23,452 nucleotides of DNA, taken from the IMG/VR virus record IMGVR_UViG_3300025684_000938, positions 1-23,452 of that record, one strand, 5' to 3'. The notes beneath the pieces are model-generated. The model ran no database searches, was not told the DNA's origin, and saw only the letters and a program-made list of their open reading frames with translations. The position numbers were made by a program, and so were the translations under genes. Source of the DNA: a virus. This document shows, piece by piece, positions 4,165 to 22,287 of the stretch (positions within the stretch are counted from its first letter, which is position 1; each line of letters opens with the position of its first letter).

Positions 4165-4833
4165 ATGTATGATATAGTATTCATAAGTTATCAGGAACCT
4201 AGTGCAGATGCTAACTATGCTGCACTCAAAGCACGGTTTTCTATGACTAAACGTGTACACGGAGTTAAAGGAATACATCAAGCACACATAAAAGCAGCAA
4301 AGAAATGCTTTACTAAGATGTTTTGGATCGTAGATGCTGATGCAATAATTATGGACGACTTTAACTTTGATTATGTTGTTCCTAATCACCAGTTAGATCA
4401 TGTACATGTATGGAGAGCAAAGAATCCTATTAATGGATTAGAATATGGTTACGGAGGAGTAAAGTTATTTCCTCGGCAGATGACAGTCGATATGGATACA
4501 ACTAAACCGGATATGACTACAAGCATAAGCGAACATTTTATTGCTGTAGATGAAGTTGCAAATATTACAGCATTTAACACAAGTCCATTTGAAACATGGA
4601 AAGGTGCATTTAGAGAATGTGCTAAACTAAGCAGTAGGACAATTACGAGACAAAACAATGAAGAAACAGAACAAAGACTTAATACTTGGTGTACAAAAGG
4701 CGGTGAGAGGCGCTATGGTGATTTCGCTATTGCTGGTGCTAATGCTGGCAGGGAGTTTGGGATTTCTAATAGGAGCAATATTAGCCTTATAAATAATTTT
4801 GATTGGTTAGCACAACAATTTAAAGAGGCATAA
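4165..4833 (+). CDS. GT-A-like glycosyltransferase family protein (short paralogue)
   Basis: 222 aa. It is a paralogue of the gene at 125. Shared blocks are YDIVFISYQEPSADANYA at the N-terminus, KRVHGV (29-34), the DXD-like VDADA (56-60), NPINGLEYGYGG, and a basic segment FETWKGAFRECAKL matching AWRAGFREGVKL in the longer copy. It lacks an internal stretch and about 60 C-terminal residues, so it may be a minimal version of the fold. No ribosome binding site precedes the ATG; a promoter with its -10 box 5 nt upstream suggests leaderless expression. It is the last plus-strand gene of the block. Its stop codon lies inside the convergent methyltransferase gene (14-nt tail-to-tail overlap). Function beyond likely sugar transfer is not visible. 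Confidence 0.7.
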   Translation: MYDIVFISYQEPSADANYAALKARFSMTKRVHGVKGIHQAHIKAAKKCFTKMFWIVDADAIIMDDFNFDYVVPNHQLDHVHVWRAKNPINGLEYGYGGVKLFPRQMTVDMDTTKPDMTTSISEHFIAVDEVANITAFNTSPFETWKGAFRECAKLSSRTITRQNNEETEQRLNTWCTKGGERRYGDFAIAGANAGREFGISNRSNISLINNFDWLAQQFKEA

Positions 4834-5632
4834 ATTTGCCAACAAGCATATGCCTAGTGCCGCGAGTGTCTTCTACTTCCTCTTCAAAAAGTATCTCTGC
4901 ACGTTCGGGCATTTGGTCTTTAAACTCTTGTAAACTATTAACACAATTTACATGCCCTTCTATGCCAAACATATTATTCGACTGGAATGCAAAGTAACAA
5001 TTGTCTGATAATTTAGGAGTTCTAAATATGCTAGTGTCTTGATCATTACTTAATGCTCCAGCCCCAAACCATTTCCAATCTTTCATTGGCGGCATATGTT
5101 CGCAGCTAGTATTAATAATTAGATTTGTATTTAAATATGCATCTCTATATGTTTTAAAAATGTCATCACAAATATAATCTACATTTTCGTAATTATTAAA
5201 TAATTTTTTTGATACCTTTGTAGTTTGGTTATCTAAATCAATGTTAACAATTTTTTTAACTTTATTTGCTAGCTTAGGTATCAATATACTTCCGTACCAT
5301 CCTGCCCACATTACAACTGTTGAATCTTTGTCTAATATTTTTAAATCGTCTACAGCATTTAACAGTGCTGTTTTTGCTGCAATTTGATTATGACTAAATG
5401 AATCTAATAAAGTTTTCTCTAAACTAGGATCTTCTTTAATTAATCCAAATACAGTTTTTAATAAAGATGCATCTGTTTCAGGCTGCAATAACTTAAACAT
5501 AGTAGTTAGAAAGTACAACTCGTCATTTCTGTTTATTGCAGTTACTAAATTATATAATTCGGTAATATCTATATCTTTATTAGTAAGACTTAGTACATTT
5601 TTAACGTACTGTAACTTTTCTCTATTAATCAT
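4820..5632 (-). CDS. class I SAM-dependent methyltransferase-like protein
   Basis: 270 aa. A helical N-terminal part (about residues 1-100) is followed by VVMWAGWYGSILIP (107-120), which fits the glycine-rich motif I of class I methyltransferases. VNIDLD follows, with an acidic residue near position 132 at the end of the second strand that would bind the SAM ribose. Further on comes INTSCEHM, a motif-IV-like segment. Motif I has Trp-Tyr-Gly instead of the usual GxGxG, so SAM binding should be treated as likely rather than certain. It is the last gene of the minus-strand run and its start overlaps the carbamoyltransferase stop by 8 nt, so the two are probably co-translated. The natural acceptor is unknown. 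Confidence 0.6.
   Translation of the reverse strand: MINREKLQYVKNVLSLTNKDIDITELYNLVTAINRNDELYFLTTMFKLLQPETDASLLKTVFGLIKEDPSLEKTLLDSFSHNQIAAKTALLNAVDDLKILDKDSTVVMWAGWYGSILIPKLANKVKKIVNIDLDNQTTKVSKKLFNNYENVDYICDDIFKTYRDAYLNTNLIINTSCEHMPPMKDWKWFGAGALSNDQDTSIFRTPKLSDNCYFAFQSNNMFGIEGHVNCVNSLQEFKDQMPERAEILFEEEVEDTRGTRHMLVGKFMPL
4826..4855. repeat. 7-bp inverted repeat at convergent gene ends
   Basis: AGGCATA (4826-4832) is the reverse complement of TATGCCT (4849-4855), with a 16-nt loop. It sits exactly where the two convergent genes overlap, so a hairpin could slow polymerase in either direction. No T-run follows on either strand, so it is not a standard intrinsic terminator. Confidence 0.25.
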
Positions 5633-7103
5633 TTGTTTTCCTTATAATGTAATCGCCAATTACTAGTATGTCTAATCCGCATTTATTAAACGTAGCAATA
5701 GCGTCTTCAGGAGTTTCTACAATAGGCTCTTGACAGTTAAAGCTAGTATTAAGCAGCATAGGAACGCCTGTAAGCGCATAGAACACATTTATTAAGTCAT
5801 AGTAACGAGGATTAAACTCGCGCTGTACGGTCTGTATACGTGCTGTGCCGTCTACGTGTGTTACTCCTGGAATAGCATCTGACGTGACTGGCATAATACG
5901 ACTCATGTACGGACTAGGCTGAGTAGTGTCAAAGTATTCGTTGTAATGTTCTACAAGTACACTAGGAGCAAATGGTCTAAAGTCTTCACGCAGTTTAATT
6001 TTACTATTAATGATATCTTTAATATTAGGATTACGAGGATCAGCAAGTATGCTACGATTGCCTAACGCTCTATTACCGCTTTCGCTTTTGCCTTGGAACC
6101 ATCCAACAATTTTACCGTCAGCAATAGCTTGAGCAACTTCTGTTATATTGACTTTTTCATCACCAACGTAGTTGTATTCTTTGCCTGCATATACATTTGG
6201 TATGTGTATATTATTATTTTGGGTATACTCGGCATGCATATAAGTGCCAAGAGATTGTCCCTCATCGCCTACAGCAGGCGGCACATGCACATTAGTATAA
6301 TGTTTTGTAAATTCTTCATTTACATATCCGTTGTATGCTACTCCGCCTGTTAGGCACAAGTTGTTACAACTTTTAAGAGGATATACATGTTTTTTAATTA
6401 AGTTTTCTGTATAAATTTGTAGTGTAAATGCAACGTTTTCTTTGGGAACACGTTTTAAAATTTTAGAAGATCCGTCTGGTAATCTATGATTAGGAGCAGC
6501 CATATACATATCGATCATATCGTGTATTTCGCTGTCGTACTCACCAAATCCTGCTAGGCCCATGGTCTTGCCTGCACCCAGATAACTAAATCCAATGTCT
6601 TGTGACAATCGATTCCAAAGCCCACCGATTGATACTTTATCAGACAGGTTGGTTATATTTCCGTCCTTGTCTGTAAAGATGCAGTTAAATTGCCATCCTC
6701 TGCCGTCAATTGCTAACACATCGCTTTGTTTAAATCCCGAGCTTAAAAAAGCATAAGCAGCATGTGATTGATGATGATCAATGTAGTAATAGTCATCAGT
6801 CTTGTAATAGTCCCATAAATTAGTAGGCTTAAAATCTAAAAAACTTAAATCAGGTAATGTATCTTCGAGTAGATCACGAACAAATTCTTGACCTAGATTT
6901 GAACATGTAAATGCAAACATGTGATCTTTATTATAATTAGGTAAAAAGTGTTCACGGAAAAACTCACGACTAGGTTCTGGATCGTGCGGATTAGTAGGAT
7001 TAAGATTGTGCTTTTTACGAGTATATCTTTCGGCCAAGTAATGAAGCTCGCCGTTGTATGTATTATGATCGTGTATATTTACTGCAACAGAAAAAATATT
7101 CAT
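5625..7103 (-). CDS. NodU/CmcH-family carbamoyltransferase
   Basis: 492 aa. The N-terminal half holds the HHQSHAA motif (residues 110-116), the metal-binding signature of the Kae1/TsaD-like carbamoyl-adenylate domain, followed by LAIDGRGW, GAGKTMGLAGFGEYD and LTGGVAYN. The C-terminal half holds FQGKSESGNRALGNRSILADP and LREDFRPFAPSVL, the hallmark of the CmcH/NodU C-terminal domain. LLNTSFNCQEPIVETPEDAI lies near the end. Family members transfer a carbamoyl group from carbamoyl phosphate, with ATP, to a hydroxyl of a sugar (NodU), antibiotic (CmcH, TobZ) or similar. The protein is shorter than many members (about 550-600 aa), but both domains look complete. Stop and start overlap neighbours by 8 and 4 nt. 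Confidence 0.93.
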   Translation of the reverse strand: MNIFSVAVNIHDHNTYNGELHYLAERYTRKKHNLNPTNPHDPEPSREFFREHFLPNYNKDHMFAFTCSNLGQEFVRDLLEDTLPDLSFLDFKPTNLWDYYKTDDYYYIDHHQSHAAYAFLSSGFKQSDVLAIDGRGWQFNCIFTDKDGNITNLSDKVSIGGLWNRLSQDIGFSYLGAGKTMGLAGFGEYDSEIHDMIDMYMAAPNHRLPDGSSKILKRVPKENVAFTLQIYTENLIKKHVYPLKSCNNLCLTGGVAYNGYVNEEFTKHYTNVHVPPAVGDEGQSLGTYMHAEYTQNNNIHIPNVYAGKEYNYVGDEKVNITEVAQAIADGKIVGWFQGKSESGNRALGNRSILADPRNPNIKDIINSKIKLREDFRPFAPSVLVEHYNEYFDTTQPSPYMSRIMPVTSDAIPGVTHVDGTARIQTVQREFNPRYYDLINVFYALTGVPMLLNTSFNCQEPIVETPEDAIATFNKCGLDILVIGDYIIRKTND

Positions 7104-7960
7104 ATGTTTCTCGTGAATATTTTGTTTAATTGATCATCCTTAATTATATCAAGTATACGTTCACGTTGTGCGGCAGGGCGCTTTGGAATGATATCTAAAC
7201 AACTTCGGCAATAGTTTTCATATTCGAACAATTTATAATTCATCATCTTGTCAATGTTTTCTTTAGTAACGTCAAATTGCCTTGACCCATTAATTGCTTT
7301 ACGACTACAATGTCTTATTTTTTGTATTTCAAAGTCGAACACAGGTACTAGCGGAAATTTAGCACATACTCTTCGATCCATTTCTGGTGCTTGGACAGGT
7401 GTATGATCTTCAAAAAAGCTTGGCGAACGTGAATTGTATTCCTTAAACTCTGTGTTCTTATGTTTTAAATATGCTAAATCGTGTTTGTCTCTGTAATTAA
7501 AGTAACCCGGTGTTTCAATAATCAAATTGTAATTGTTTAAATCATTAGGTTCAAAGAAATCATAGTTGCCTAGTTTTTCAATTCGATCTTCATAAAAGTC
7601 TAATACTAAATGTTCGATGTAGATAATTTCTGGATCTTCTAATACCTCTGGATAAAATTTACGTATTAGTGAATTAGATAATACTTGAATTACAAGATTA
7701 GGATGCTTTTTAATTTCAGCAATAATTTCTCGTAGATTTTTAATAAGAGCAGGTTCACCGCCTAGTAAACAAATGCGTGTCTTATACGGAGAAAGACCGT
7801 CTAGGATAGTTCTTACGAAATCCATATCAACATCAAGATTGCGCATTTCTAGCGTCCACGCCGTACAGTAGTGACAACTTTTATTGCAACTCTTGGTCAT
7901 GTAAAAGTCTACAGTTCTGTATTCTGAACCTTTTAGATCTGCTAACATTTTAATTGCCAT
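7100..7960 (-). CDS. radical SAM protein
   Basis: 286 aa. Cys25-x3-Cys29-x2-Cys32 (SCNKSCHYC) is the canonical radical SAM [4Fe-4S] site, and GGEP at 67-70 is the SAM amino-group motif. Extra cysteines in the last third (RRVCAKF, RHCSRK and CRSC) suggest a second, partial SPASM/twitch-type cluster. The ATG has an AAGGTG Shine-Dalgarno about 7 nt upstream, which supports this start over the Met at residue 5. It overlaps the nitroreductase gene by 11 nt and the carbamoyltransferase start by 4 nt, so the three form one translational unit. Reaction and substrate are unknown. The neighbours suggest a step in making or decorating a small molecule (inference). Confidence 0.85.
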   Translation of the reverse strand: MAIKMLADLKGSEYRTVDFYMTKSCNKSCHYCTAWTLEMRNLDVDMDFVRTILDGLSPYKTRICLLGGEPALIKNLREIIAEIKKHPNLVIQVLSNSLIRKFYPEVLEDPEIIYIEHLVLDFYEDRIEKLGNYDFFEPNDLNNYNLIIETPGYFNYRDKHDLAYLKHKNTEFKEYNSRSPSFFEDHTPVQAPEMDRRVCAKFPLVPVFDFEIQKIRHCSRKAINGSRQFDVTKENIDKMMNYKLFEYENYCRSCLDIIPKRPAAQRERILDIIKDDQLNKIFTRNI

Positions 7961-8663
7961 TAATAGTCACCTTTGTATGTTTTTCAAAGCTAGGAAATTG
8001 CCAAGGTTCGTCTAACTCACCGGTACGGGCTATTTCTAGAACATCTTTATTTAATGTTTCGGCGTGCCACCGCCTATTAACTCCGACATTTTCGTATCCT
8101 ATACCAACTAACAATTTAGGTACTTTATCGCTTTTAATTATTTCTGCAACTTTATCTTGATGAAAAGCAGAACATACTCCTGTTTTATATCCTAAAAGAT
8201 TAGCAGATAAGATAAGTTGGCCTACTGATACACCTACAGAATATGCTTTATTTTCTATATAAAAAGCATTTAACATTTGTTCTTCGGGGTTCTGTTGTGC
8301 TAATTTATGTGATCCGCCCCTTGCAGGTCCTTCGTCGTCCTCGTAGACAAATAATACATTTGCTAATATTTGAGAGTTATGAACAGACGTATTTTCGTCT
8401 TGCCATATTTTTCCATCTTTAACTTCCGCTATCGGTTTACTACTAGGAAGAGAAAATAATTTAGTACAGTTGTATATCTGTCTAATGACAGATTGATCAG
8501 TATACACTTTTATCTTATAGTGTATTTCGTTTTGTTTTGAAGGAGAATTTTTTGCAACATAAATTAACGTCTCTAAATCACTTTTAGATACTGTACAACT
8601 TAGGTCATAATTACGCTGTGCTCGCTGAGAGTTGTCTATAGCATTTTTAATTTTATCTTTCAT
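7950..8663 (-). CDS. nitroreductase-family flavoprotein
   Basis: 237 aa. Residues about 15-45 carry an RNYD segment and a SPSKQN motif, corresponding to the RR/SxRxF and S-P-S-x-x-N FMN-phosphate elements of the family. The middle reads SVGVSVGQLILSANLLGYKTGVCSAF, the typical helix preceding the C-terminal FMN contacts, and VGIGYE follows. Members use FMN and NAD(P)H for two-electron reductions or oxidations, including dehydrogenation of peptide-derived azolines or tailoring of natural products. No Met candidate lies near residue 1 other than the first ATG. That ATG lies 6 nt after a perfect sigma-70 -10 box and has no Shine-Dalgarno. It starts a four-gene overlap-linked run with the radical SAM, carbamoyltransferase and methyltransferase genes. 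Confidence 0.85.
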   Translation of the reverse strand: MKDKIKNAIDNSQRAQRNYDLSCTVSKSDLETLIYVAKNSPSKQNEIHYKIKVYTDQSVIRQIYNCTKLFSLPSSKPIAEVKDGKIWQDENTSVHNSQILANVLFVYEDDEGPARGGSHKLAQQNPEEQMLNAFYIENKAYSVGVSVGQLILSANLLGYKTGVCSAFHQDKVAEIIKSDKVPKLLVGIGYENVGVNRRWHAETLNKDVLEIARTGELDEPWQFPSFEKHTKVTINGN

Positions 8664-8669
8664 AATAAT

Positions 8670-8698
8670 ATTATACTACCAATTAATATAGTTGTCAA
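8670..8698 (-). promoter_or_regulatory. perfect-consensus sigma-70 promoter, leaderless
   Basis: On the minus strand TTGACA (8698-8693), a 17-nt spacer and TATAAT (8675-8670) match the bacterial housekeeping consensus in all twelve positions. It fills almost the whole 37-nt gap between two genes. The nitroreductase ATG begins at 8663, six bases beyond the -10, so the expected first transcribed base coincides with the A of the start codon. No ribosome binding site is present. Confidence 0.8.
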
Positions 8699-8700
8699 TA

Positions 8701-10197
8701 CTAGATTATACTTTGATCTATTATTTCTTCTTGTTTCTTTACTTGTTTATCCCATGATTTAAACAACTCTTCTTGTTCAGAAGTAATTTCTTTCTTTATA
8801 TAAAATTCTTCTAGTTCTGGAAATACCTCAAATAAATTCATTTCCCATTTAGTGCCTTTATAAAATTCATCTGCCCTTAGCAAATAGTCAAAAATATTTT
8901 GAATATCTACATCGGAGTCATTTGGCATTTCTAAAGCTGCAATGATATCAGGCCAATCTTTGTATTTAGGAATCAATGCTTGTTTAATTTTTTCTGGCAA
9001 ATTATTAGCACGTAAATGTCTAGGATGTTCAACAAACGCCCAGTTTAATTGGTTAATAACAGGATTTTCCTTACACCAGTCTATAATTTCATAAAATCTC
9101 ATAACACTAAGAAATGATACTAAACCATTAAAGTCTACAACTACATTCGGATGCTTTTTAACTAAATCAATATTATCAACTACTTCTTGCCAGTCAGTTC
9201 GTCTTCTCATGTATTCAATAGTTTTACCTATACCATCAACTGAAGCAACTACAGTAACACGATCAAAGTGTGGAATATAATTAAATATATTATGCTTACC
9301 TGCCTTAGTTTTAGTTAAATTAGTCTGATACTTGATTCTAATATGTTTAGAATGCCCGGTTTCGATCAGTTTATCTAACATTTCATAATGTTTTTTCATA
9401 ATTAAAGGTTCGCCGCCGATAATTTTTATGCTTTTAATATATTGTGCAATAGCAACAATTTGCTCGGTTACTCCTTCAGTTTTATCCTTCATTACTTGTG
9501 CGTTACGGGCATCTCTTTCTGGAGACTGTTCGCCAAATACTTTAGTATTCCATACACCTTTCTTTGCAACTTGCATGCGTGTAGTTGAATTATCATGCAG
9601 ACACATGTAGCAATCTAGATTACATTCAGAGCCGTATATTTTTAATTGAACTTCAAATATGCGCCCTGCACCTTTAAGAGTAAATTCGCCTGTATCTCTA
9701 AATTTTGTTGCTTGTTTTTCAATTTTATTCCAAAAATTGGGATCATTAGTATGTATTTTCATACAATTTGTTCTTCTTGATCTACCATATCGTGCTTCGT
9801 CGCCCCTGCAACGTTGACACCATTTGTCTACAGCCTTAAGATCAGAACCTACTGTAGTCATTTCTCTACGTAGGTCGTTCATATAGTCACTATTTTCCAT
9901 CCATTCCTTTAAAGGAACTTCTTCTACGCTAACGCCAGACGGTTCGCCAAAACAACATGCCTGATATTGGCCGTCTAATTCTGAATATATCTGTGTAAAC
10001 GGAATAGTACAAAAGTAAATATCTTTGTTTTTTGCCTGCTGAACAATAGATCCTTCTTTTGCAGCAACTTCTTTACCTTCATCATCTAACTTTTGCCACC
10101 ATGCTTCGGTATTCACAAAGCCCGGTGCAGATCGATCTCCAGGACCGCCTTTTGTTAAATATTCAGGTAAGTTGGGTGTTTGTTTATCATCACTCAT
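8701..10197 (-). CDS. radical SAM protein with N-terminal SPASM/twitch-like Cys domain
   Basis: 498 aa. An N-terminal Cys-rich region (Cys63, the Cys81-Cys82 pair, and Cys127-x2-Cys130) resembles the auxiliary iron-sulfur SPASM/twitch domain. The radical SAM core follows with GSECNLDCYMC (Cys192, Cys196, Cys199) and GGEP (261-264). The order is unusual: in most SPASM enzymes the auxiliary domain is C-terminal. The C-terminal 200 residues include SVDGIGKTIEYMRR, a conserved core strand, and an acidic tail rich in Glu and Lys. The protein at 12161 is a paralogue with the same layout. Such proteins are frequent but uncharacterised in marine T4-like phages (family knowledge). The stop is 37 nt before the nitroreductase gene, the start only 5 nt after the PP-loop gene. 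Confidence 0.85.
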   Translation of the reverse strand: MSDDKQTPNLPEYLTKGGPGDRSAPGFVNTEAWWQKLDDEGKEVAAKEGSIVQQAKNKDIYFCTIPFTQIYSELDGQYQACCFGEPSGVSVEEVPLKEWMENSDYMNDLRREMTTVGSDLKAVDKWCQRCRGDEARYGRSRRTNCMKIHTNDPNFWNKIEKQATKFRDTGEFTLKGAGRIFEVQLKIYGSECNLDCYMCLHDNSTTRMQVAKKGVWNTKVFGEQSPERDARNAQVMKDKTEGVTEQIVAIAQYIKSIKIIGGEPLIMKKHYEMLDKLIETGHSKHIRIKYQTNLTKTKAGKHNIFNYIPHFDRVTVVASVDGIGKTIEYMRRRTDWQEVVDNIDLVKKHPNVVVDFNGLVSFLSVMRFYEIIDWCKENPVINQLNWAFVEHPRHLRANNLPEKIKQALIPKYKDWPDIIAALEMPNDSDVDIQNIFDYLLRADEFYKGTKWEMNLFEVFPELEEFYIKKEITSEQEELFKSWDKQVKKQEEIIDQSII

Positions 10198-10202
10198 AAT
10201 AT

Positions 10203-11012
10203 TTAATCATTCCATTCTAAGTTAAATGCCCATTTTCTTTCATGACACCAAAAGCATTGATGGCAATCCCTAGTAAAATTATCTGTTCCCCTAGCAGTAC
10301 CAACACATGACCGTGTTATTGGAAACAACGACTCCATTAAATTATTTTCTTGATATACACCTGCAACAAATTTTTTATCTACATTTATGTATACTTGATA
10401 TATATTATTCAAGTAATCCGAATGTCCTGCAGGTAATATTGGAACCCCAGCAGCTTCACAGCTAGTTTTTACGGTCCTAAGCTCTTGTATTTTTGGAACA
10501 GATTTATCTCTTCTTCTTTCTGCTTTATCCCAAAATCCTAATTCTAACATTTCTTCTTCTGGAGGATTTCGAGTCATACCGTCTAGTCTAATAGCACCCG
10601 GATTTTCTTTCATTACAGATCTTGCTATCCTGTCTATTTGTATTATTTTTGACATTTGGACTCTATTTAAATTTTTATAGTTAAATCTAGGATTTGCTAT
10701 GGCTTTATCGCATTCTTCCCAAGACACTATTGATTCACTTTTATCATCAAAGTTAACTGTTTTTAGATCTCGAATTTTATTATTGGGAAATTCTGTTTTT
10801 ATCCACTTAACAATTAGCTCGGCTGCATCTGCATCTTTTGGAGCATTTATATCTCTACAACAAAAGGGAACAATCTCTATTTCAGGAAAATGTTTAGCTG
10901 TAAGGTACATAGCTGATGCTGAATCAGCTCCTCCAGATAGCGAAATTACTATAGTTTCTGGTAAGTCGAAACTAAAAAAATCTATAGTTTGCTCACTGTA
11001 AGTTAATTTCAT
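10203..11012 (-). CDS. QueC/ExsB-like PP-loop ATP pyrophosphatase
   Basis: 269 aa. SLSGGADSASA (24-34) is the SGGxDS PP-loop of adenylating ATP-pyrophosphatases. The C-terminus has Cys236, then Cys250-x2-Cys253-x2-Cys256 followed by ERKWAF, which matches the zinc site of QueC (Cys, then CxxCxxC, then R-x-x-GF). QueC turns 7-carboxy-7-deazaguanine into preQ0. No QueD, QueE or FolE partner was recognised nearby, so this may be a relative acting on another carboxylate. ATG choice is secure: AGGAG lies 6 nt upstream. It is the first gene after an 88-nt gap. A thiolase-type or asparagine-synthase-type PP-loop remains possible, but the Cys4 tail argues for QueC-like. Confidence 0.75.
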   Translation of the reverse strand: MKLTYSEQTIDFFSFDLPETIVISLSGGADSASAMYLTAKHFPEIEIVPFCCRDINAPKDADAAELIVKWIKTEFPNNKIRDLKTVNFDDKSESIVSWEECDKAIANPRFNYKNLNRVQMSKIIQIDRIARSVMKENPGAIRLDGMTRNPPEEEMLELGFWDKAERRRDKSVPKIQELRTVKTSCEAAGVPILPAGHSDYLNNIYQVYINVDKKFVAGVYQENNLMESLFPITRSCVGTARGTDNFTRDCHQCFWCHERKWAFNLEWND

Positions 11013-11018
11013 ATTTTT

Positions 11019-11040
11019 CTCCTAATAGTGTTTAATTATA
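11019..11040 (-). promoter_or_regulatory. probable -10 box and ribosome binding site for the PP-loop gene
   Basis: In the 88-nt gap TATAAT lies at 11040-11035 on the minus strand and AGGAG at 11023-11019, six bases before the ATG. The -35 region is poor (TATTGT at a 17-nt spacing), so either an activator or an adjacent TATAAT-like element is needed. The strong Shine-Dalgarno contrasts with the leaderless starts elsewhere in the window. Confidence 0.4.
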
Positions 11041-11100
11041 CTTATACTACTGTATCAACAATAGCCTTGCTTATTGAGTTTATGGTATTAAAAATTGTTT

Positions 11101-14486: not shown

Positions 14487-14495
14487 GATCTGTCC

Positions 14496-15365: not shown

Positions 15366-15372
15366 TATGTAA

Positions 15373-15380
15373 TATTTATA
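15373..15380 (-). promoter_or_regulatory. T4-type late promoter box TATAAATA
   Basis: Minus-strand TATAAATA at 15380-15373. By T4 spacing transcription would begin near 15367, two bases before the preferred ATG at 15365, producing an essentially leaderless message. Confidence 0.4.
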
Positions 15381-15402
15381 AACCACTACTTATTGTATAC
15401 AT
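15376..15402 (-). other. possible 8-codon leader ORF
   Basis: On the minus strand ATG at 15402 opens a frame of eight codons (MYTISSGL) that ends in a TAA embedded in the late box. A GGAAAG sequence stands 4 nt before the ATG. If transcription starts from the upstream late box, this mini-ORF would be the first translated frame, and its stop would lie 10 nt before the main gene's ATG. It may be a chance ORF. Confidence 0.2.
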
Positions 15403-15421: not shown

Positions 15422-15429
15422 TATTTATA
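15422..15429 (-). promoter_or_regulatory. T4-type late promoter box TATAAATA (second copy)
   Basis: A second exact minus-strand TATAAATA, 49 nt upstream of the first, inside the divergent intergenic region. It would give a leader of about 50 nt upstream of the ATG at 15365, including the possible 8-codon ORF. Two exact boxes pointing the same way in a 140-nt noncoding stretch are less likely to be chance than single ones inside genes. Confidence 0.5.
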
Positions 15430-15520: not shown

Positions 15521-15526
15521 ACCATA

Positions 15527-16150
15527 GTGTATAATAACTCTACATTATATTCAACGTTAACAAGATTTGGTGACTATTATCCATTACGCTTAGAAAACCA
15601 AGTGGGCTCTTTAATCGAAGATGTTAGAGATAACTTTACATGGGTTCAGTACAATCCGAGAAAAAATATTAATAGAGAAGGCCTTAGTATTACAAGTTTA
15701 GATGGCGGGTTATCTGGTAAGCCTGACTTGGATAGTTTGTATGAATACTATAAAGAAACGGGTATAGTATTAAACGAAACACACTTTACTATTAAAACAC
15801 CAGTCTACGAATATTTTAAACAATGGTTAGATCCGTTAGAAGCGCACCTAGGCAGAACACATGTTATTAGATTAAATCGAGGAGCGTTCTTTCCTCCGCA
15901 CAGAGACAACAAGCACTCTAATATAGATTCATTTAGATTATTTTTACCATTAAACTACGAAAGCGATCAAAACTTTTTTCTATTAGAAGATAAAAAGATG
16001 GAATTTAAAAACGGAGTTATGTATTTTATTGATACTGCAAAAATGCATACATTGTTTAATACTAATGACTACCCATTCTACTTTGTTGTTGCAAATGTAA
16101 TTTTGTCAAAAGAAAGTGTTGACAAGACTCTTAAGTTTTTACACGGCTAA
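15527..16150 (+). CDS. Fe(II)/2-oxoglutarate oxygenase, Asp/Asn-hydroxylase-like
   Basis: 207 aa from a GTG with a strong Shine-Dalgarno. The double-stranded beta-helix part is C-terminal: RGAFFPPHRDN gives the HxD iron ligands His125 and Asp127, FRLFLPLNY is the next strand, and AKMHTLF gives the distal His174. This is the layout of aspartyl/asparaginyl beta-hydroxylase-like enzymes, which hydroxylate aspartate-type residues or small molecules using O2 and 2-oxoglutarate. The basic residue that binds 2OG is not obvious after His174, so co-substrate use is inferred from the family. It is the first gene of a two-gene plus-strand unit diverging from the minus-strand run. Confidence 0.75.
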   Translation: MYNNSTLYSTLTRFGDYYPLRLENQVGSLIEDVRDNFTWVQYNPRKNINREGLSITSLDGGLSGKPDLDSLYEYYKETGIVLNETHFTIKTPVYEYFKQWLDPLEAHLGRTHVIRLNRGAFFPPHRDNKHSNIDSFRLFLPLNYESDQNFFLLEDKKMEFKNGVMYFIDTAKMHTLFNTNDYPFYFVVANVILSKESVDKTLKFLHG

Positions 16151-16165
16151 AATATCTACTTTAGC

Positions 16166-16173
16166 TATAAATT
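16166..16173 (+). promoter_or_regulatory. possible late-type box TATAAATT
   Basis: TATAAATT (one mismatch to the T4 late octamer) lies in the 40-nt gap before the next gene. The predicted start site near 16179 would leave a 12-nt leader. The gap is almost pure A and T, so chance occurrence is likely enough that this is only a candidate. Confidence 0.25.
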
Positions 16174-16190
16174 AAAAGAATATAAAAATT

Positions 16191-17786
16191 ATGAAACTAA
16201 AATTTGTTAACCTGTACCTTATGTCTAGATATCTAAACTTTATTGGTATTAATATAAATTACTATATGCTTAAATCCTATTATAGGTATAAAAATAATGC
16301 GAATCATAATAGGATTCAATGGACTCCTCAACATTGGCAGCCAGATTGTTCAGTAGATTATATTGCTAATAAAATTATAGAAGAAGAGATTGACATACTC
16401 TGTATGTCGGTATTTGTTTGGAACAGCGACTTTACCTATCAAATTGCTAAAAAAGTTAAAGAAATAAATCCTTTGATTAAAATAATAATAGGAGGCCCGG
16501 ATGTTAATGTATTGTCTAACAATGACTATTTTGAAATTCACAACTACATAGACTACGCAGTTTACGGCGACGGTGAAGAAGCTTTTTGTAAAATTTTAGA
16601 TAGTATATTAGATAATAAACCTATAGAAAACGGCATTAATATTGTAACAAAAGAAAAAGTTTATCAGCACAGAGTATTTTTTGATAGTGATTACAATACT
16701 AAAAGTAGTTTCTTAAGTGAAAAGGATATTTTAAAAAACCATTTATTAGAAATAAGAGAAAGTACAAATGATAAGATCTCTCTAGAGGTCAGATGGGAGA
16801 GAGCTCGGGGATGTCCTTATTCTTGTAGTTTTTGTGACTGGTCTAGTGGCCTACACAACAAGGTTAAAAGAAAAAAATCTAGTTGGAAAGAAGAGTTAGA
16901 TTTTTTATTTTCTTGTCCTGGTGTTGTTGTATCGCCCACAGATGCTAATTGGGGTATGTACGAAGAAGATATAGAAATAACAAAGTATGCGGTAGATAAC
17001 GGAACTTTTTATGTTACAAATTTAAGTAAACTTAATAAAGAACGTGTCTACAAAATTTATGATATAATGATAAAAGGAAAAAAGACTAAAGTGCTAAAGG
17101 TAAAACTTTCTTTTCAAGATATTCACGAAGATGTGCTTGACAATATTAGTCGACCTGACGTATCATGGAAAGATCATAAATCTTTAATACAAAGTTTTAA
17201 AGAAAAAAATCCCAATATTGGTCTAATAGCTGAAATTATAGTAGGACTTCCTGGACAAACTATTTCAAAACAGTTAGATCAACTAAATGAATTTAAGAAC
17301 AACGGAATAACTAATATACTATGCTTCTTTTGGGAACTAATTCCAAATAGTCCGGCGTATAAAGAAGAATATCAAACTGTCTATGAATTAAAAGTAGATT
17401 CCCTTGTACTCCTTAAAGAAGATAATCAAGATTTTAAAAGTTTAGCAGATGTTGATAACGCTATACAAACTGGCAAACCCGGCTGGTCCAAATCTAATAT
17501 TGTAATAGGAAATAAAACTCAAGAATTAGCAGATATATTAACATGCTTTGCTTTAGCACAAGTTTTTAATAAAAGTTCTGGAAAAGGAGACTTTTCGCTT
17601 TTAAATAATTCTGTTTGTGAAAACATATACAAAGAAATGAAGCTCACAGCTGACCTTATAAAAGAAACAAAAATACTGGGTATGTACAGTAAAAAACATA
17701 ATTGTTATGTATCAATAGACAAGTATTTTATCGACATGGATTTTGAGACTATGATGAATAATTACGGTAGCACAGTTAAAGTTTAA
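16191..17786 (+). CDS. radical SAM enzyme with N-terminal B12-binding-type domain
   Basis: 531 aa. Residues 1-140 look like the cobalamin-binding Rossmann domain that precedes many radical SAM cores: IDILCMSVFVWN, IKIIIGGPDV (97-105), and YAVYGDGEEAF (122-132). The D-x-H-x-x-G cobalamin ligand motif is absent, so cobalamin may bind base-off without that histidine, or not at all. The core follows with ARGCPYSCSFCDW (Cys208, Cys212, Cys215) and VGLPGQT further on. Relatives catalyse methylation of unactivated carbons, ring contraction or other rearrangements. The Shine-Dalgarno is weak (AAAAGAA). Its stop overlaps the convergent oxygenase gene at 17776 by 11 nt. Confidence 0.85.
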   Translation: MKLKFVNLYLMSRYLNFIGININYYMLKSYYRYKNNANHNRIQWTPQHWQPDCSVDYIANKIIEEEIDILCMSVFVWNSDFTYQIAKKVKEINPLIKIIIGGPDVNVLSNNDYFEIHNYIDYAVYGDGEEAFCKILDSILDNKPIENGINIVTKEKVYQHRVFFDSDYNTKSSFLSEKDILKNHLLEIRESTNDKISLEVRWERARGCPYSCSFCDWSSGLHNKVKRKKSSWKEELDFLFSCPGVVVSPTDANWGMYEEDIEITKYAVDNGTFYVTNLSKLNKERVYKIYDIMIKGKKTKVLKVKLSFQDIHEDVLDNISRPDVSWKDHKSLIQSFKEKNPNIGLIAEIIVGLPGQTISKQLDQLNEFKNNGITNILCFFWELIPNSPAYKEEYQTVYELKVDSLVLLKEDNQDFKSLADVDNAIQTGKPGWSKSNIVIGNKTQELADILTCFALAQVFNKSSGKGDFSLLNNSVCENIYKEMKLTADLIKETKILGMYSKKHNCYVSIDKYFIDMDFETMMNNYGSTVKV

Positions 17787-18231
17787 TATCACCGATGGCA
17801 TTTTCGTCTTTAGTCCAAACACTAATTGCTATGCGTGTACTATTGATTCCTACAACATTATGAAACTTTGTTACGTTAATATTATGCCAAACACATGTAG
17901 GAAAAATTACTCTATCAATTTCTTCTGCATTGTCGTCATACCAAATTGTGCTAACATCGCCTCCTGATTTAATAATATAATTATAACAGTTTGTTCTACC
18001 ATAGTCTTTGTGTAGGGGTAAATCGTCTGTAATTAATTGAAAGGCAATATTTACATTATTATCGAAGTATGGTTTTAAAAAGTCATTAAGCTCTTGAGTA
18101 GCAGTGTGCAGTGAATACTTAGTTGCCTTGATTCCGTTAAACTTATTAGGAATTTTTCTAATCTCATCTTCTGTTAGATTAATAATATTATCTGGAATTC
18201 GAGGCAATTGTGAACAATAATTATATAACAT
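17776..18231 (-). CDS. Fe(II)/2OG oxygenase-like protein
   Basis: 151 aa from ATG at 18231; a TTG 36 nt upstream (18267) also fits the frame, but that would overlap the sulfotransferase by 47 nt instead of 11. With the ATG start, LPLHKDYG gives His74 and Asp76 as the HxD iron site, FHNVVGI gives the distal His124, and STRIAISVW gives Arg133 as the likely 2OG ligand. All four residues expected for the family are present. The enzyme is short for the family, so it is a minimal jelly-roll. It is the last gene of the block-D operon and ends tail-to-tail with the B12-type radical SAM gene; the two stop codons lie within a TTAAAGTTTAA palindrome. Confidence 0.65.
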   Translation of the reverse strand: MLYNYCSQLPRIPDNIINLTEDEIRKIPNKFNGIKATKYSLHTATQELNDFLKPYFDNNVNIAFQLITDDLPLHKDYGRTNCYNYIIKSGGDVSTIWYDDNAEEIDRVIFPTCVWHNINVTKFHNVVGINSTRIAISVWTKDENAIGDIKL

Positions 18232-18793
18232 TGGTACTATACGAAAAGTTTTTAAAATCTTCTTCAAAAGTTTGAAAGATTAACTTTTCCCTTTTCTCGT
18301 CATAATAGTCTAAATAATTATAGTTAGAGTTAACCATCTCTTTTTGATTTATCTTAAATCCTAATTTGTATTCTAATTTAGAATACCCGTCTTCGTATTT
18401 AAAAATATTAGGAACCATACCGTTATTACCTGTTAAGATCTGTGTTTGCGTAATACTAGTAAATGTATTCTTTTTAGAATATAGCTCTTCAAAAGTTAAG
18501 TTAGTAAGTTTATCTTTAAATGCATACATGTTCTTTAAAAATACATAGAAACTTACAGCTCTAACAAACGGATTTCTAACAACAGAAAACACCCATTTGT
18601 TTTCTATTAATGGCTCCCAATAAATATACGGATAGTGCATAACTTTACGCCAGTCAACACCGTTTATTTCATTGCTAAACGTATCTTCCGGCATGTATTT
18701 TGCGTCTGCACAATTTAATTCTATGCTTTTCTTAATACTCATGCCAGAAGTTTTTGGTACGTGTATAAATGCAAAATCTTTTGTGTAAATCAT
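18221..18793 (-). CDS. sulfotransferase (PAPS-dependent)
   Basis: 190 aa. FAFIHVPKTSGMS (residues 8-19) is the 5'-phosphosulfate loop of PAPS-dependent sulfotransferases, and SVVRNPFVRAVSFY (70-83) is the 3'-phosphate binding motif with Arg and Ser. This is the Sulfotransfer_2 / carbohydrate sulfotransferase pattern. Members transfer sulfate to hydroxyls or amines of glycans and small molecules. It is short (typical 230-300 aa), but both PAPS motifs are complete and the length is consistent with other bacterial and phage members of the family. Start and stop overlap neighbours by 4 and 11 nt. It probably decorates the same product on which the adjacent oxygenases act (inference). Confidence 0.85.
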   Translation of the reverse strand: MIYTKDFAFIHVPKTSGMSIKKSIELNCADAKYMPEDTFSNEINGVDWRKVMHYPYIYWEPLIENKWVFSVVRNPFVRAVSFYVFLKNMYAFKDKLTNLTFEELYSKKNTFTSITQTQILTGNNGMVPNIFKYEDGYSKLEYKLGFKINQKEMVNSNYNYLDYYDEKREKLIFQTFEEDFKNFSYSTNVI

Positions 18794-19407
18794 TTAGGTA
18801 ACTCGTTTTCTAAAAAGTTATCAAAACTTATGCCTGACTTTCTAGTCATAGTTTTTGTTCTTATTGTTAGAACTACACGTGGATAGTTTTTATTTTCAAA
18901 TTCTTCTGTTACAACATTATGCGGAATACTAGCATTAAATAATGTTGGTCTATCTAGGATCATCTCGTAAATTGGTTTAATAACGGCATTATGCGGATAT
19001 GTCCATGCGCCACCGTCATTAGCAGCATAAGGTGCGCTTGCGCTATCACGAATCCAGCCTTCGTTGTCTGATCTAAGTCCGCGGTTCATGTCATACCAAA
19101 CATTCTTACCATATTTGTTGCAATTTATAACTGGAATATTTAAACAAGTATTATAGCCTGCATCCTCATGTATTATTGTATTAGAATTTGGCAATGTGAT
19201 AAAGAAACGTGTAACTGTAATCCTACTATTAAAAAAGTCTTCACACCAATTATAAAAGTCTGGAAGGACACTTTTTAAATCAAACAGTCTTAAATTCCAT
19301 TCAAATTCGTAGTCTTTTTTTGCTAACAACTCTTGTACATACGGATGATTTAAAATAACACTATTGTCATAGTGTTGTATATCAATGTCTTTATGAAATA
19401 TTGTCAT
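18790..19407 (-). CDS. Fe(II)/2OG oxygenase-like protein
   Basis: 205 aa. NTIIHEDAGYNT supplies His80 and Asp82 (HxD), ASIPHNVVTEE supplies the distal His163, and NYPRVVLTIR supplies Arg177 as the candidate 2OG-binding residue. An insert of about 60 residues between the two iron-ligand strands (residues 95-150, rich in Asn, Trp and Gly) is larger than in the 151-aa oxygenase at the end of the operon and may form the substrate pocket. No similarity beyond the fold is obvious with the TauD-like neighbour. The start lies inside the TauD-like gene's 3' end (17-nt overlap); its stop overlaps the sulfotransferase ATG by 4 nt. Confidence 0.7.
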   Translation of the reverse strand: MTIFHKDIDIQHYDNSVILNHPYVQELLAKKDYEFEWNLRLFDLKSVLPDFYNWCEDFFNSRITVTRFFITLPNSNTIIHEDAGYNTCLNIPVINCNKYGKNVWYDMNRGLRSDNEGWIRDSASAPYAANDGGAWTYPHNAVIKPIYEMILDRPTLFNASIPHNVVTEEFENKNYPRVVLTIRTKTMTRKSGISFDNFLENELPK

Positions 19408-20215
19408 TTGTTATTCTTTCATTAAACCAGTTTTGATCCCACGTAACTCTTTTTAGTTTACGTTTACCTGTAAATGCATCTCGAGTATGAATAGTACTCC
19501 AGTTGTCATATACAACTAAATCACCTACATTCCAGTTATGTGCATATGTTGTTTCGTTGCTTATCATTTTATTGATAACATTTTTCTTAATCCATTGTTT
19601 ATAATCAACATCTTTTTCAAGTCCTTCTATCCACTGCGTGAATAACTCGTCAGCTACTAATCCGTAATCATTATGGATAGGATGCCATTGTATTGCCGGT
19701 CTTCTAACATAACAATCCCAAGGAGTATTATAAGGTGCTTTACATAGTGCTGTAGCATATTTTAAAAATTCTTTTATTGAACTGTTAATTAAGTTTAGAC
19801 CTTGTACTGTGTCAATAAATTGAGTACTAGCTGTATCTCCTTCGAGCTCAACTGCGTACAAGATTCTGTTAGGTAGTAGTTGCGAAGGAAAGTGTGTAAG
19901 ATCAACATGCCACGGTATTAATCCAGAGCTCAATAGTCCGTCTTCACTTACTGTCTCAACAAAGTTGTCTTCATGACCGCTAACTACACTTTGTTGAAGA
20001 CCGCTGTACTTTTCCTTTGAATTATCCCAAACTTGACCAAAAATACTACAAAACTTTTTTAATTGCATATTATTTAAAGATTGATCTTTAAAAATAACTA
20101 CTTTTTGTTTGGCAAATATTTCATATATTTGTTTTTCTTCAGATGAAGTAAGATTGGCACAATCTACATCTAGAATTTCACTTACCCAATTGTTTTTGAT
20201 TTTCTTAACTAGCAA
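19391..20215 (-). CDS. TauD/TfdA-family 2OG dioxygenase
   Basis: 274 aa. LIPWHVDLTHF carries His103 and Asp105, NWSTIHTRDAF carries the distal His243, and KLKRVTW carries Arg256, completing the HxD...H...R set of the TauD family. An additional Gly-Asp-Leu-Val segment (NVGDLVVYDN) just upstream of the distal His is also diagnostic. Members hydroxylate or desaturate small molecules or cleave alkyl sulfonates and sulfates. The start is TTG with AGGAAA seven bases upstream; the next ATG is at residue 50, so a TTG start is needed to keep the fold intact. Given the sulfotransferase two genes downstream, a sulfated substrate is possible but unproven. Confidence 0.92.
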   Translation of the reverse strand: MLVKKIKNNWVSEILDVDCANLTSSEEKQIYEIFAKQKVVIFKDQSLNNMQLKKFCSIFGQVWDNSKEKYSGLQQSVVSGHEDNFVETVSEDGLLSSGLIPWHVDLTHFPSQLLPNRILYAVELEGDTASTQFIDTVQGLNLINSSIKEFLKYATALCKAPYNTPWDCYVRRPAIQWHPIHNDYGLVADELFTQWIEGLEKDVDYKQWIKKNVINKMISNETTYAHNWNVGDLVVYDNWSTIHTRDAFTGKRKLKRVTWDQNWFNERITNDNIS

Positions 20216-20220
20216 TTTAA

Positions 20221-20226
20221 TTTCCT
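20221..20226 (-). promoter_or_regulatory. ribosome binding site AGGAAA fixing a TTG start
   Basis: AGGA at 20226-20223 on the minus strand lies seven bases before TTG at 20215. It sits in the short gap and the stop codon of the upstream gene. No ATG occurs within the first 49 residues of the frame, so this site decides the start of the TauD-like gene. Confidence 0.6.
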
Positions 20227-20800
20227 AATTTATAGATCTACTTGGCAAGTTAAAGTCTTCGTGACCGTTAATATCTAACATTGCGATGTTTTGCCAACAT
20301 GCTTCATTTGTATTTTCTGAAATATCGTGATTACATGTATAATACATTTCAGGTAATAATATAAATTTATTTTCGTTATCGCTATTATTGTTCCATCTTT
20401 CGATTACTTTAACCATTGCAGCTCTTCTTTTAATACCAGATATAGAAAAAAACGGAATTAAGTTTTTTTCAATTGCTATCTTCACATGTAATGGCAAGAA
20501 ATATGTTGAAGCTGTAGCCTTTAATTTATTTTCATTTAAAAAAGATAATGAACTACTTCTAGCTATTTTAAAGTAGTAAGTACGGTCTGCTATTCTAACA
20601 AACTTCGGATCCCATTGCTTGCTTTTAAACATGCCTGACATTGCAATAACTTCGTCATTATACTTTGCTACATGATAATTTAAATAATCGGGTATTCGTT
20701 TTTCAAATTTATTAAAGTTAGAAAACGAGTCTTCCTTTGCAAGCTCAGTTAATCTTAAAAGTTCTTCTTTAGAATCGAGTATATCTTCAATTGATATCAT
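20225..20800 (-). CDS. protein of unknown function, possible GNAT-like fold
   Basis: 191 aa, not confidently recognised. Residues 40-75 (YHVAKYNDEVIAMSGMF, then FVRIADRTYYF) have the strand-turn-strand pattern of the GNAT acetyltransferase core, but the A-type acetyl-CoA loop (Q/RxxGxG/A) is absent; SGIKRRAAM around residue 122 is the closest. No signal peptide, membrane helix or metal site is seen. It lies between two 2OG oxygenase genes in one operon, overlapping the upstream gene by 14 nt, and so probably works in the same pathway. Its C-terminus (INGHEDFN) resembles the end of the adjacent oxygenase (INGQEDLD), which may be coincidence. Confidence 0.35.
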   Translation of the reverse strand: MISIEDILDSKEELLRLTELAKEDSFSNFNKFEKRIPDYLNYHVAKYNDEVIAMSGMFKSKQWDPKFVRIADRTYYFKIARSSSLSFLNENKLKATASTYFLPLHVKIAIEKNLIPFFSISGIKRRAAMVKVIERWNNNSDNENKFILLPEMYYTCNHDISENTNEACWQNIAMLDINGHEDFNLPSRSIN

Positions 20801-21380
20801 TCAAAACATCCAAGTCTTCTTGTCCATTAATTGATACTATTAACTTTATTGCATCAGTGCTACCAAAATTAAATCCGGTATGTTTGTGTCCTACGTTTAC
20901 AAACCACACCGAACCGTCTGCAGGCATGTATTGAAATTCTGGCAACTTTTGACCTTTTCGCTGAATAGCATTCCAACTCCACTCGTTAGCAACAAGCGGA
21001 ATAAAAAATCTAATACTAAATCGTGTATCATAGTCCATGTGCGGTAAAATATAAGCACCTGGCTTTTGAACAACTAATCTTGTTCGTGTATATGGAGATT
21101 TAAAACTATCTAACACTTCTTCAACATACGTGCCTTTATACTTTTCATATAGATTAGTATAAGTTCTTTCATCTGCTTTGTCTCTAAGCATAGCATCTTT
21201 GTCACTTGTATATGTAACATATGTTTGTTCATATTCGTCGTTTAATAAATATGGTCCACATTTGTTAACAAGCTGATCTTTACTAGGTTCGAAATCTCTA
21301 AAGCATTGTAATAGTTTTTCAGTATCAACTTTCATATTTGGCATTTTATAAAAGTTTGGTAATTCGTTTCTATTTTTCAT
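20787..21380 (-). CDS. Asp/Asn-beta-hydroxylase-like 2OG oxygenase
   Basis: 197 aa. The jelly-roll is C-terminal. YILPHMDYD gives His114 and Asp116; FSIRFFIPLV is the following strand; GSVWFVNVGHKHTGFNFG gives the distal His (165 or 167), a block that closely follows the aspartyl/asparaginyl hydroxylase pattern (W/V-x-x-x-x-x-x-H-x-x-x-N). Lys179 could contact 2OG. Members hydroxylate aspartyl or asparaginyl side chains or free amino acids such as proline. It overlaps the upstream radical SAM gene by 11 nt and the unknown gene by 14 nt. Confidence 0.75.
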   Translation of the reverse strand: MKNRNELPNFYKMPNMKVDTEKLLQCFRDFEPSKDQLVNKCGPYLLNDEYEQTYVTYTSDKDAMLRDKADERTYTNLYEKYKGTYVEEVLDSFKSPYTRTRLVVQKPGAYILPHMDYDTRFSIRFFIPLVANEWSWNAIQRKGQKLPEFQYMPADGSVWFVNVGHKHTGFNFGSTDAIKLIVSINGQEDLDVLNDIN

Positions 21381-22287
21381 TTATTAACTCCAATTTAATC
21401 TTTCTAGGACCGTCTACTTTTGTTTCATAATATTCAAAGAAAGGTTCGATTTCGTAGTCTTCGGTAAGTATGCCTCTTCTTTTACTTCCTCTGTCTGGCA
21501 AGCCATCATCGTCTACAGTCCAGTCAGTACACTTACCGTATATAGTGCCTGCTTTAGATTCAAACTGATATACACATGTATTAGTTTCTTTATAGCCGTT
21601 TACTTCAAATTTAGGTACAAACTCTCCAAAGTTTTCTTTTGCAATATCTATTAGTTCGTTTATATTGTATGTATAAGTATCTAAATAATTTCCCATATTG
21701 CCTACTGATTTAATTCGTATTACTATAGGAAATTTAATACCTGATTTTCTATTATACTTTTTACATAATTCTTCGATATAAGATAACAACGGCTTTAGGA
21801 TATGTATATTAGTAGGATCAACAATTATATTGATATGCGGCACAAGTTTATGTTTTATACAATTTTCTAATGCTCTTTTCTTTACAGTTGCAAATTTACC
21901 ATTATCAAATCTTTTATATACTTCGTCGTCAAGCCCGCCGTTCATACTCAATCCTAAAAAGTTTAGCCCTGACTTTTTAAGATTAATAACGTAATCTTCT
22001 TGGGCAAGTTTTAGACCATTAGTTAGTAAAGAAGGAAGGTGATTATATTTTTTAACAATTCTTATCATATCAAAAAGATTATCATTCATAGTTGGTTCTG
22101 CACCTATGAATCTAATTTCTGTTTTATTAGGTAATCTACTTATAGCATCTTCAAATCTTTCAATGTGTACATCTTTATAGTTTGGATTATTTAACATGTC
22201 ACCTAAGTAACAATTAGCGCAGGTCATATTACATTTATAAGTTGTCTGAATTGATAGTATACGAAATGTATTATCTTCAGGTTTCAT
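21370..22287 (-). CDS. radical SAM protein
   Basis: 305 aa. SIQTTYKCNMTCANCYLG holds Cys19, Cys23 and Cys26. The second motif reads IGAEPTMND (61-69), with Ala in place of the second Gly of GGEP, which is seen in some families. LSMNGGLDD (about 115) is a core strand. Two Cys (TNTCVYQ and YGKCTDW) follow in the C-terminal region, too few for a full SPASM domain. AAGAGGA lies 7 nt before the ATG, so the start is secure. It is the first gene of the seven-gene minus-strand operon, with a TATAAT -10 box upstream. Substrate unknown. Confidence 0.85.
   Translation of the reverse strand: MKPEDNTFRILSIQTTYKCNMTCANCYLGDMLNNPNYKDVHIERFEDAISRLPNKTEIRFIGAEPTMNDNLFDMIRIVKKYNHLPSLLTNGLKLAQEDYVINLKKSGLNFLGLSMNGGLDDEVYKRFDNGKFATVKKRALENCIKHKLVPHINIIVDPTNIHILKPLLSYIEELCKKYNRKSGIKFPIVIRIKSVGNMGNYLDTYTYNINELIDIAKENFGEFVPKFEVNGYKETNTCVYQFESKAGTIYGKCTDWTVDDDGLPDRGSKRRGILTEDYEIEPFFEYYETKVDGPRKIKLELINEK

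Follow-up and report, generated by a model that had tools for sequence, protein, structure and literature searches.

A conserved operon of radical SAM, aminotransferase and carbamoyltransferase genes, predicted beside the tail genes of marine phages

Background

Sugar-modifying gene islands are known in phages, and their chemistry has mostly been guessed from single genes. In this work, we analyse a stretch of viral DNA of 23,452 bp, here called the window, which is the entire IMG/VR record IMGVR_UViG_3300025684_000938, and describe within it, at positions 4820-15386, an operon of radical SAM (S-adenosylmethionine), aminotransferase, carbamoyltransferase and glycosyltransferase genes. The closest described setting is the host recognition cluster of pelagimyophages, an extensive and variable island adjoining the tail-fibre genes and containing glycosyltransferases and other lipopolysaccharide genes, in which one comparison also features radical SAM gene cassettes (Zaragoza-Solas 2020, PMC7029224). 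Its position, on the tail-fibre/baseplate side, is shared by the operon; however, the description of the island mentions no conserved operon or pathway, and the window belongs to a jumbo-type backbone, with a core that spans two lineages. A second case, likened by description, is the T4-like marine phage genome TARA_ERS488813_N000010, radical-SAM-rich like the window; its 12 radical SAM genes were taken for auxiliary genes related to Fe-S clusters, and the passage on them proposes neither an operon nor a glycan role (PMC5332604).

A first-pass annotation of the window had counted six radical SAM proteins and five 2-oxoglutarate (2OG) oxygenases in 4820-22287, and had supposed one or more biosynthetic or surface-modifying pathways. 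Comparison with related sequences indicates that this region is two things rather than a single pathway: one conserved phage operon at 4820-15386 and, at 15527-22287, a set of genes which are accessory modules.

Organization and conservation of the core operon

The core genes are the following, starting from the first of the operon; bit scores are given against the respective cut-offs.

14496-15386, minus strand: GTX, GT-B fold glycosyltransferase by predicted structure, first operon gene
14133-14486, minus strand: TWI, free-standing SPASM/twitch half-protein paired with RS4 (SPASM 17.2 bits, under cut-off)
13412-14143, minus strand: RS4, radical SAM core half of a putative split twitch enzyme (PF04055 27.5 against 29.5 bits; TIGR04317 E 5e-9)
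12161-13399, minus strand: RS3, second N-terminal-twitch radical SAM (NF033640 279 against 170 bits; PF04055 above cut-off)
11101-12174, minus strand: DEGT, DegT/DnrJ/EryC1 sugar or cyclitol aminotransferase (PF01041 287 against 19.8 bits, residues 19-354)
10203-11012, minus strand: PPL, QueC-like PP-loop ATPase (PF06508 22.9 against 22 bits; invariant SGGxDS and C-terminal cysteines)
8701-10197, minus strand: RS2, N-terminal-twitch radical SAM (NF033640 300 against 170 bits; PF04055 above cut-off)
7950-8663, minus strand: NTR, nitroreductase-family flavoprotein (PF00881 31 against 23.5 bits)
7100-7960, minus strand: RS1, radical SAM with a C-terminal four-Cys auxiliary-cluster (twitch-like) region (PF04055 34.5 bits)
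5625-7103, minus strand: CARB, O-carbamoyltransferase of TobZ/NovN/GdmN type (Pfam Carbam_trans_N and _C; PDB NovN, GdmN, TobZ)
4820-5632, minus strand: MT, predicted class-I SAM methyltransferase, last core gene (family profile against PDB methyltransferases)

The same core operon is found in the cultured SAR11 phage Mosig EXVC030M, of the Kyanoviridae/pelagimyophage lineage (PMC7892664). In this phage and in 13 other relatives the recurring order is GTX, TWI/RS4, DEGT, (PPL, RS2, NTR), RS1, CARB, MT, with local changes: in Mosig RS4 precedes TWI, and both PPL and RS2 are missing from beside RS1, and in contigs G006 and G007 the RS1-CARB-MT segment is inverted. The core order is retained in the long contigs examined, on both of the phage backbones described below.

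Co-occurrence was evaluated on 57 non-redundant GTX loci with sufficient downstream sequence. Loci had been gathered with RS2, RS6, RS1 and GTX as queries, while DEGT, CARB and MT were never used as such. DEGT, RS1 and CARB are each present, on one strand, in 56 of the 57 loci (98%), the figure for RS1 being partly favoured by the search, since RS1 was among the queries; RS4 and MT are found in 49, TWI in 38, NTR in 30, PPL and RS2 in 24 each. Confirmed places in virus contigs number at least 278 for RS1 relatives and 318 for GTX relatives, duplicates included.

Full-length in-frame fusions among the relatives join PPL to RS2, PPL to RS4, GTX to TWI (in L022, L042 and L224, TWI standing at the GTX end), GTX to an RS2-type protein, and RS2 to CARB, the last being seen in G012 and others, where CARB is joined to an RS2-type radical SAM. 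Divergence is correlated among GTX, DEGT, RS1 and CARB (Spearman 0.55-0.77), and pairwise identities of the core genes co-vary for most pairs, MT being the loosest member. The genes of the window are tightly packed, every gap being of 140 bp or less, and the overlaps reported in the first-pass annotation are real, involving 12 of 22 same-strand neighbours. Conservation of gene order in relatives, which had been proposed there as a check of the pathway idea, is thus observed for 4820-15386, with order kept, co-occurrence in up to 56 of 57 loci and fusions linking GTX, TWI, RS2, RS4, PPL and CARB; it does not extend to 15527-22287, whose genes are found in 37% of the loci at most. As a single pathway, 4820-22287 is rejected by the co-occurrence data.

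Properties of the core proteins

GTX has no useful match in Pfam or among PDB sequences. Foldseek analysis of its AlphaFold2 model (pLDDT 87.8, pTM 0.87) returned PimA, BshA and other GT-B enzymes of the PDB as top matches, and a GT-B glycosyltransferase fold is predicted with good confidence. In DEGT the PF01041 match covers the full domain; no NCBIfam equivalog cut-off is reached, and the best PDB matches are scyllo-inositol transaminase (top), QdtB, perosamine synthetase and WbpE. CARB features both Carbam_trans domains, an invariant HHxxH motif and, conserved in about 170 sequences including copies, residues W335, G348 and R350, corresponding, by motif spacing, to W408, G421 and R423 of TobZ, as expected for an enzyme of this type. 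The carbamoyl-, amino- and sulfotransferases and the nitroreductase of the first-pass annotation (5625, 11101, 18221 and 7950) all find support in Pfam. Its methyltransferase at 4820 is only partly borne out: the MT family profile matches MJ0882 and KsgA-type methyltransferases of the PDB (E 7e-5), and no Pfam family scores above cut-off.

All six proteins listed as radical SAM carry a CxxxCxxC motif, and PF04055 scores above cut-off in five of them and 2 bits under it in the one at 13412; alignments of the 7100, 8701/12161 and 13412 families show no variation in the motif cysteines. RS1 has seven invariant cysteines: C25, C29 and C32, of the radical SAM cluster, and, after the core, a four-Cys auxiliary set of the BtrN/SpeY type, C199, C218, C251 and C254, which could hold one auxiliary cluster. 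Its Foldseek matches include CteB (first), BtrN, MoaA, EpeE, SpeY and SuiB, with TM of about 0.4-0.57.

RS2 and RS3 exceed the curated 170-bit cut-off of the N-twitch radical SAM family NF033640 and contain the N-terminal twitch cysteines. In RS2, for which relatives show fusions to PPL, GTX or CARB, C63, C81, C127 and C130 (N-terminal) and C192, C196 and C199 are invariant; the same seven are present in RS3, an 86% identical orthologue of which occupies the same position in G006 and G007. RS4, with invariant C26, C30 and C33, scores 24 bits against NF033640 and does not qualify alone, its twitch half being a separate gene. This half, TWI, was absent from the first-pass list; it has invariant C7, C29, C30, C86 and C90 and overlaps RS4 by 11 bp, so that the two resemble an N-twitch radical SAM divided into separate genes. 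In the Mosig-type lineage the order of this pair (13412-14486 in the window) is reversed. PPL, fused to RS2 or RS4 in relatives, scores 16 bits against the 150.3 bits of the QueC equivalog; given its SGGxDS motif and cysteine cluster, it may nevertheless perform QueC-like chemistry.

Bacterial members of the N-twitch family

Three bacterial NF033640 loci were found, two in genomes of a phylum sample and the third in a later order sample; all score above the family cut-off and all lie among glycan genes. The first (L319) contains WbsX, TylF, RmlD, an ABC-2 permease and, in one protein with the radical SAM, a Wzt ATPase, the second (L320) a sugar epimerase and a GT2 glycosyltransferase, the third (L322) a GT4 glycosyltransferase and an FkbM-methyltransferase fusion. 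Wzt is the ATPase of the O-antigen exporter; in L319, positions 4235-11143, its fusion to an N-twitch radical SAM has three further N-twitch genes lined up behind it.

Phage lineages and distribution

A 73,284-bp contig, G001, contains the window sequence at 99.8% identity. Its tail genes adjoin the cassette, and its 1,160-aa gp6-like wedge protein is closest to those of jumbo phages such as Phosso, Atu_ph07 and SCTP-2, and not to a Kyanoviridae/pelagimyophage backbone; the 262-kb contig G024 contains the same operon and the same structural genes. Judging from these proteins, the source of the window is a jumbo-type T4-like myophage, a more exact placement than the "phage region" initially assigned. 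Baseplate proteins of Mosig match G005, G012, G013 and, in part, G009 and G010, and have no match in G001. Jumbo-type tail genes in G001 and G024 and Mosig-type baseplate matches elsewhere place the same cassette in at least two phage lineages, and in both the operon adjoins tail and fibre genes. A search for near-matching DNA among annotated phages found nothing for the window.

In the bacterial genome collection, the sole RS1 relatives are three short metagenome-assembled contigs (L148, L149 and L150), all featuring the phage operon order; L148 has Mosig-type tail genes, the other two having been judged by gene order, and all three are probably phage sequence binned with bacteria. RS1 was found in 1 of 247 SAR11-order genomes and in 1 of 399 genomes of its phylum, both hits being the same small contig. 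No bacterial donor of the operon was found when sought through RS1 in these three sets, and the sampled cellular genomes are essentially devoid of the core operon.

The core is flanked, on the side of MT, by the following genes.

125-4833, plus strand: GTa, U418, SGNH, UGD and GTb, flanking genes, glycosyltransferase-like; the GT and SGNH labels come from weak matches or inspection
2920-4158, within this group: UGD, UDP-glucose dehydrogenase (Pfam 67.8 bits; phrog_9148 336 bits)

GTb is found in 26 of the 57 GTX loci. On the other edge of the cassette, 22387-23451 encodes a structural protein with an Mtd_N domain, preceded at 37 bp by the motif TATAAATA in G003 and G001. Next to the cassette, G001 also encodes a single tail-associated protein of 5,349 aa (44279-60328, L097-L098), with a relative of 4,986 aa in G024.

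The variable half

15527-16150, plus strand: OX1, 2OG-oxygenase-like (PF05118, Asp_Arg_Hydrox, 21.2 against 22.6 bits; invariant H125, D127, H174; mostly on the opposite strand)
16191-17786, plus strand: B12, cobalamin-binding radical SAM, KedN5-like (PF02310 and PF04055; NF033712 111 bits, under the 700-bit cut-off)
17776-18267, minus strand: OX2, 2OG-like by motif (no family match; HxD...H...R common to an L074 protein and OX3)
18221-18793, minus strand: SULF, sulfotransferase (PF03567 23.6 against 22 bits; phrog_3347, galactose-3-O-sulfotransferase)
18790-19407, minus strand: OX3, 2OG-like by motif (no family match; HxD...H...R)
19391-20215, minus strand: TAUD, TauD-family 2OG oxygenase (PF02668 86.6 bits)
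20225-20800, minus strand: P191, protein of the RS6-oxygenase-P191 module, following RS6 and a 2OG-like gene
20787-21380, minus strand: OX5, 2OG-like (PF05118 20.9 against 22.6 bits; invariant H114, D116, H167)
21370-22287, minus strand: RS6, radical SAM of an accessory module (PF04055 49.7 bits; motif CNMTCANC)

In the 57 GTX loci OX1 occurs 21 times, OX5 14, TAUD 11, B12 10, RS6 5, OX2 3, SULF 2 and OX3 once, the commoner ones mostly on the opposite strand. By motif, the count of five 2OG oxygenases proved right, the HxD...H triad being present in all (by inspection in TAUD); the curated cut-off, however, is passed by TAUD alone, and those at 17776 and 18790 are recognized by motif only. The OX1 and OX5 families are homologous (hhalign 98.7%), whereas the OX2/OX3 group is not recognizably related to the OX5 family (hhalign 1.7%).

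The order RS6, 2OG-like gene, P191 is found in the window, G013, L087-L089, L093 and L094, and the module recurs beside tail genes. RS6 of the window is 78% identical to that of G013, which has a Mosig-type backbone; such identity across differing backbones suggests exchange between phage lineages. In B12 the cluster motif, CPYSCSFC, is readable directly; this phage-encoded KedN5-like protein (16191-17786), binding cobalamin, would need it from the host. A viperin-type defence was considered and rejected, since the matches of 7100 and 21370 to the pVip models are confined to the radical SAM core.

Timing of expression

15422-15429, minus strand: TATAAATA, T4-type late-promoter-like motif, 43 bp before the start of the GTX open reading frame

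Within the window this motif occurs six times, against 6.4 expected, and is not above chance; a late promoter could thus not be shown for the window operon. Among non-redundant upstream regions, the exact T4-type late motif is found before GTX in 12 of 65, in comparison with 1 of 69 for DEGT, 1 of 75 for RS1 and none of 64 for CARB. Most of the 12 belong to Kyanoviridae-type or related loci, with a spacing of about 26-50 bp. Late expression, for which this is weak evidence, would be consistent with decoration of the virion or, late in infection, of the surface.

Proposed pathway and alternative explanations

We regard it as fairly probable that 4820-15386 encodes a phage pathway for the synthesis and attachment of a carbamoylated amino-sugar. 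Established in its support are the family assignments of most proteins, the cluster-type cysteines, the conservation of the operon, the fusions and the bacterial glycan context; a glycan role is also consistent with GTX, the type of CARB, DEGT, and the genes nearby for UDP-glucose dehydrogenase and glycosyltransferase-like proteins. Of the roles suggested in the first-pass annotation, a surface or glycan one is the best supported, and its shared pathway is retained for 4820-15386, leaving out 15527-22287 as variable accessory modules.

The steps proposed are deduced from the enzyme families. An alcohol of a sugar or cyclitol would be oxidised to a ketone by a twitch radical SAM (RS1, perhaps also RS2, RS3 or RS4/TWI) that removes hydrogen and passes the second electron to its auxiliary cluster, in the manner of BtrN and SpeY, which are aminocyclitol dehydrogenases. 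The substrate that BtrN oxidises is an aminocyclitol alcohol, and the twitch cluster of this enzyme is fully ligated (PMC9012708, PMC6231123). DEGT would convert the ketone to an amine, PPL might use ATP to activate a carboxylate or an amide, leading to a change of amide type, CARB would attach an O-carbamoyl group and MT a methyl group, and GTX would transfer the sugar to a surface or tail-fibre glycan. The accessory modules of 15527-22287 (2OG oxygenases, SULF, B12) would vary the decoration between phages. A narrower version, tentative and in its entirety doubtful, is that the pathway is specific to viruses and has passed between marine phage families unrelated to each other, and that twitch radical SAM dehydrogenation, DegT transamination and O-carbamoylation, together a chemistry of aminoglycoside style, combine in it to produce a previously unknown carbamoylated amino sugar, destined to virion fibres or to the surface of the infected cell.

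Several observations weigh against this pathway. No nucleotide-sugar synthesis gene (nucleotidyltransferase, 4,6-dehydratase) was recognized in the core, so that the phage would depend on its host for the substrate. The fold match of RS1 is weak and extends, about equally, to several radical SAM types, peptide-modifying enzymes and MoaA included, and by sequence BtrN is matched weakly (E 0.01). The similarity of TWI to the N-terminal part of RS2 is weak, no characterised protein is close to PPL, and the bacterial glycan context is based on three loci.

The genes might instead hypermodify phage DNA, a modified base being made and then carbamoylated, aminated and glycosylated against restriction. 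A phage carbamoyltransferase acting on 5-hydroxymethylcytosine (5hmC) is on record (PMC8670742), GTX shares its overall fold class with T4 alpha-glucosyltransferase, a lower-ranked match, and PPL resembles QueC. Nonetheless, CARB, of the same superfamily as that phage enzyme and 26% identical to it over 258 residues, has, like its homologues, W/G/R where the latter has I/C/T, at the three positions tied to cytosine specificity (PMC8670742). No thymidylate synthase/hydroxymethylase (PF00303), PTPS/QueD (PF01242) or C5 DNA methylase was found in 11 contigs, perhaps incomplete, including those of 262 and 171 kb; a queuosine/7-deazaguanine pathway is not indicated either, PPL being under the QueC equivalog score and without a PF01242 partner. 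The late-promoter motif at the head of the operon in Kyanoviridae-type loci also argues against DNA as a target, and we hold this explanation to be unlikely. Little probability is also assigned to the radical SAMs modifying a peptide or a phage structural protein, in the manner of ribosomally synthesised and post-translationally modified peptides (RiPPs) or of fibre crosslinking. RiPP pathways often employ SPASM/twitch radical SAMs, CteB, SuiB and EpeE are among the matches of RS1, and the operon is next to tail-fibre genes; a fibre protein may be the substrate. But the gaps of the window leave no space for a precursor gene, no widely conserved small open reading frame is found in the operon (the best is common to 7 other loci, a number that includes copies of one contig), and, to our knowledge, DegT, carbamoyltransferase and GT-B enzymes are not typical RiPP partners.

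An equally small chance is given to a soluble small molecule or cofactor aiding infection, such as an aminocyclitol-like inhibitor. Twitch dehydrogenase, DegT and carbamoyltransferase do recall aminoglycoside tailoring, and the top DEGT match is a scyllo-inositol transaminase; yet no scaffold enzyme (e.g. 2-deoxy-scyllo-inosose synthase), export or resistance gene was recognized among the window proteins searched, and the dedicated glycosyltransferase, with the bacterial O-antigen context, indicates a polymer. That a hypervariable tail-fibre island simply collected host-derived auxiliary genes which are unrelated and share no pathway agrees with the low and variable co-occurrence in 15527-22287; for the core it is already contradicted by co-occurrence at 98%, by gene order on one strand, by the recurrent fusions and by the correlated divergence, as well as by the near absence of cellular RS1 homologues from the samples searched, and we judge it very improbable.

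If the carbamoylated amino-sugar pathway is correct, a function would be suggested for the N-twitch radical SAM family, whose bacterial members here sit in O-antigen-type loci. Availability of the cultured phage Mosig EXVC030M, on strain HTCC1062, makes what such phages build directly testable.

Comparison with known systems

No description of the operon or of its pathway was found in the open-access literature searched, subscription papers being outside the search. The bacterial O-antigen/capsule-type loci share with the phage operon the radical SAM family and the glycan context, but no GTX-DEGT-RS1-CARB block was noticed in them. CARB is of the same family as TobZ, NovN and GdmN, with the same metal-binding histidines and W/G/R residues, its N-domain match being partial (Carbam_trans_N from position 85). 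In the butirosin system, a works-like comparison, BtrN, likewise a twitch radical SAM whose auxiliary cluster has four cysteines, is found beside a DegT enzyme; in contrast, the phage operon adds a glycosyltransferase and a carbamoyltransferase and contains no recognized 2-deoxy-scyllo-inosose synthase. Radical SAM richness and radical SAM cassettes are already on record in such phages, as is cross-family transfer of another multigene set among pelagiphages (PMC9599517); the operon as a pathway is described in none of the papers found.

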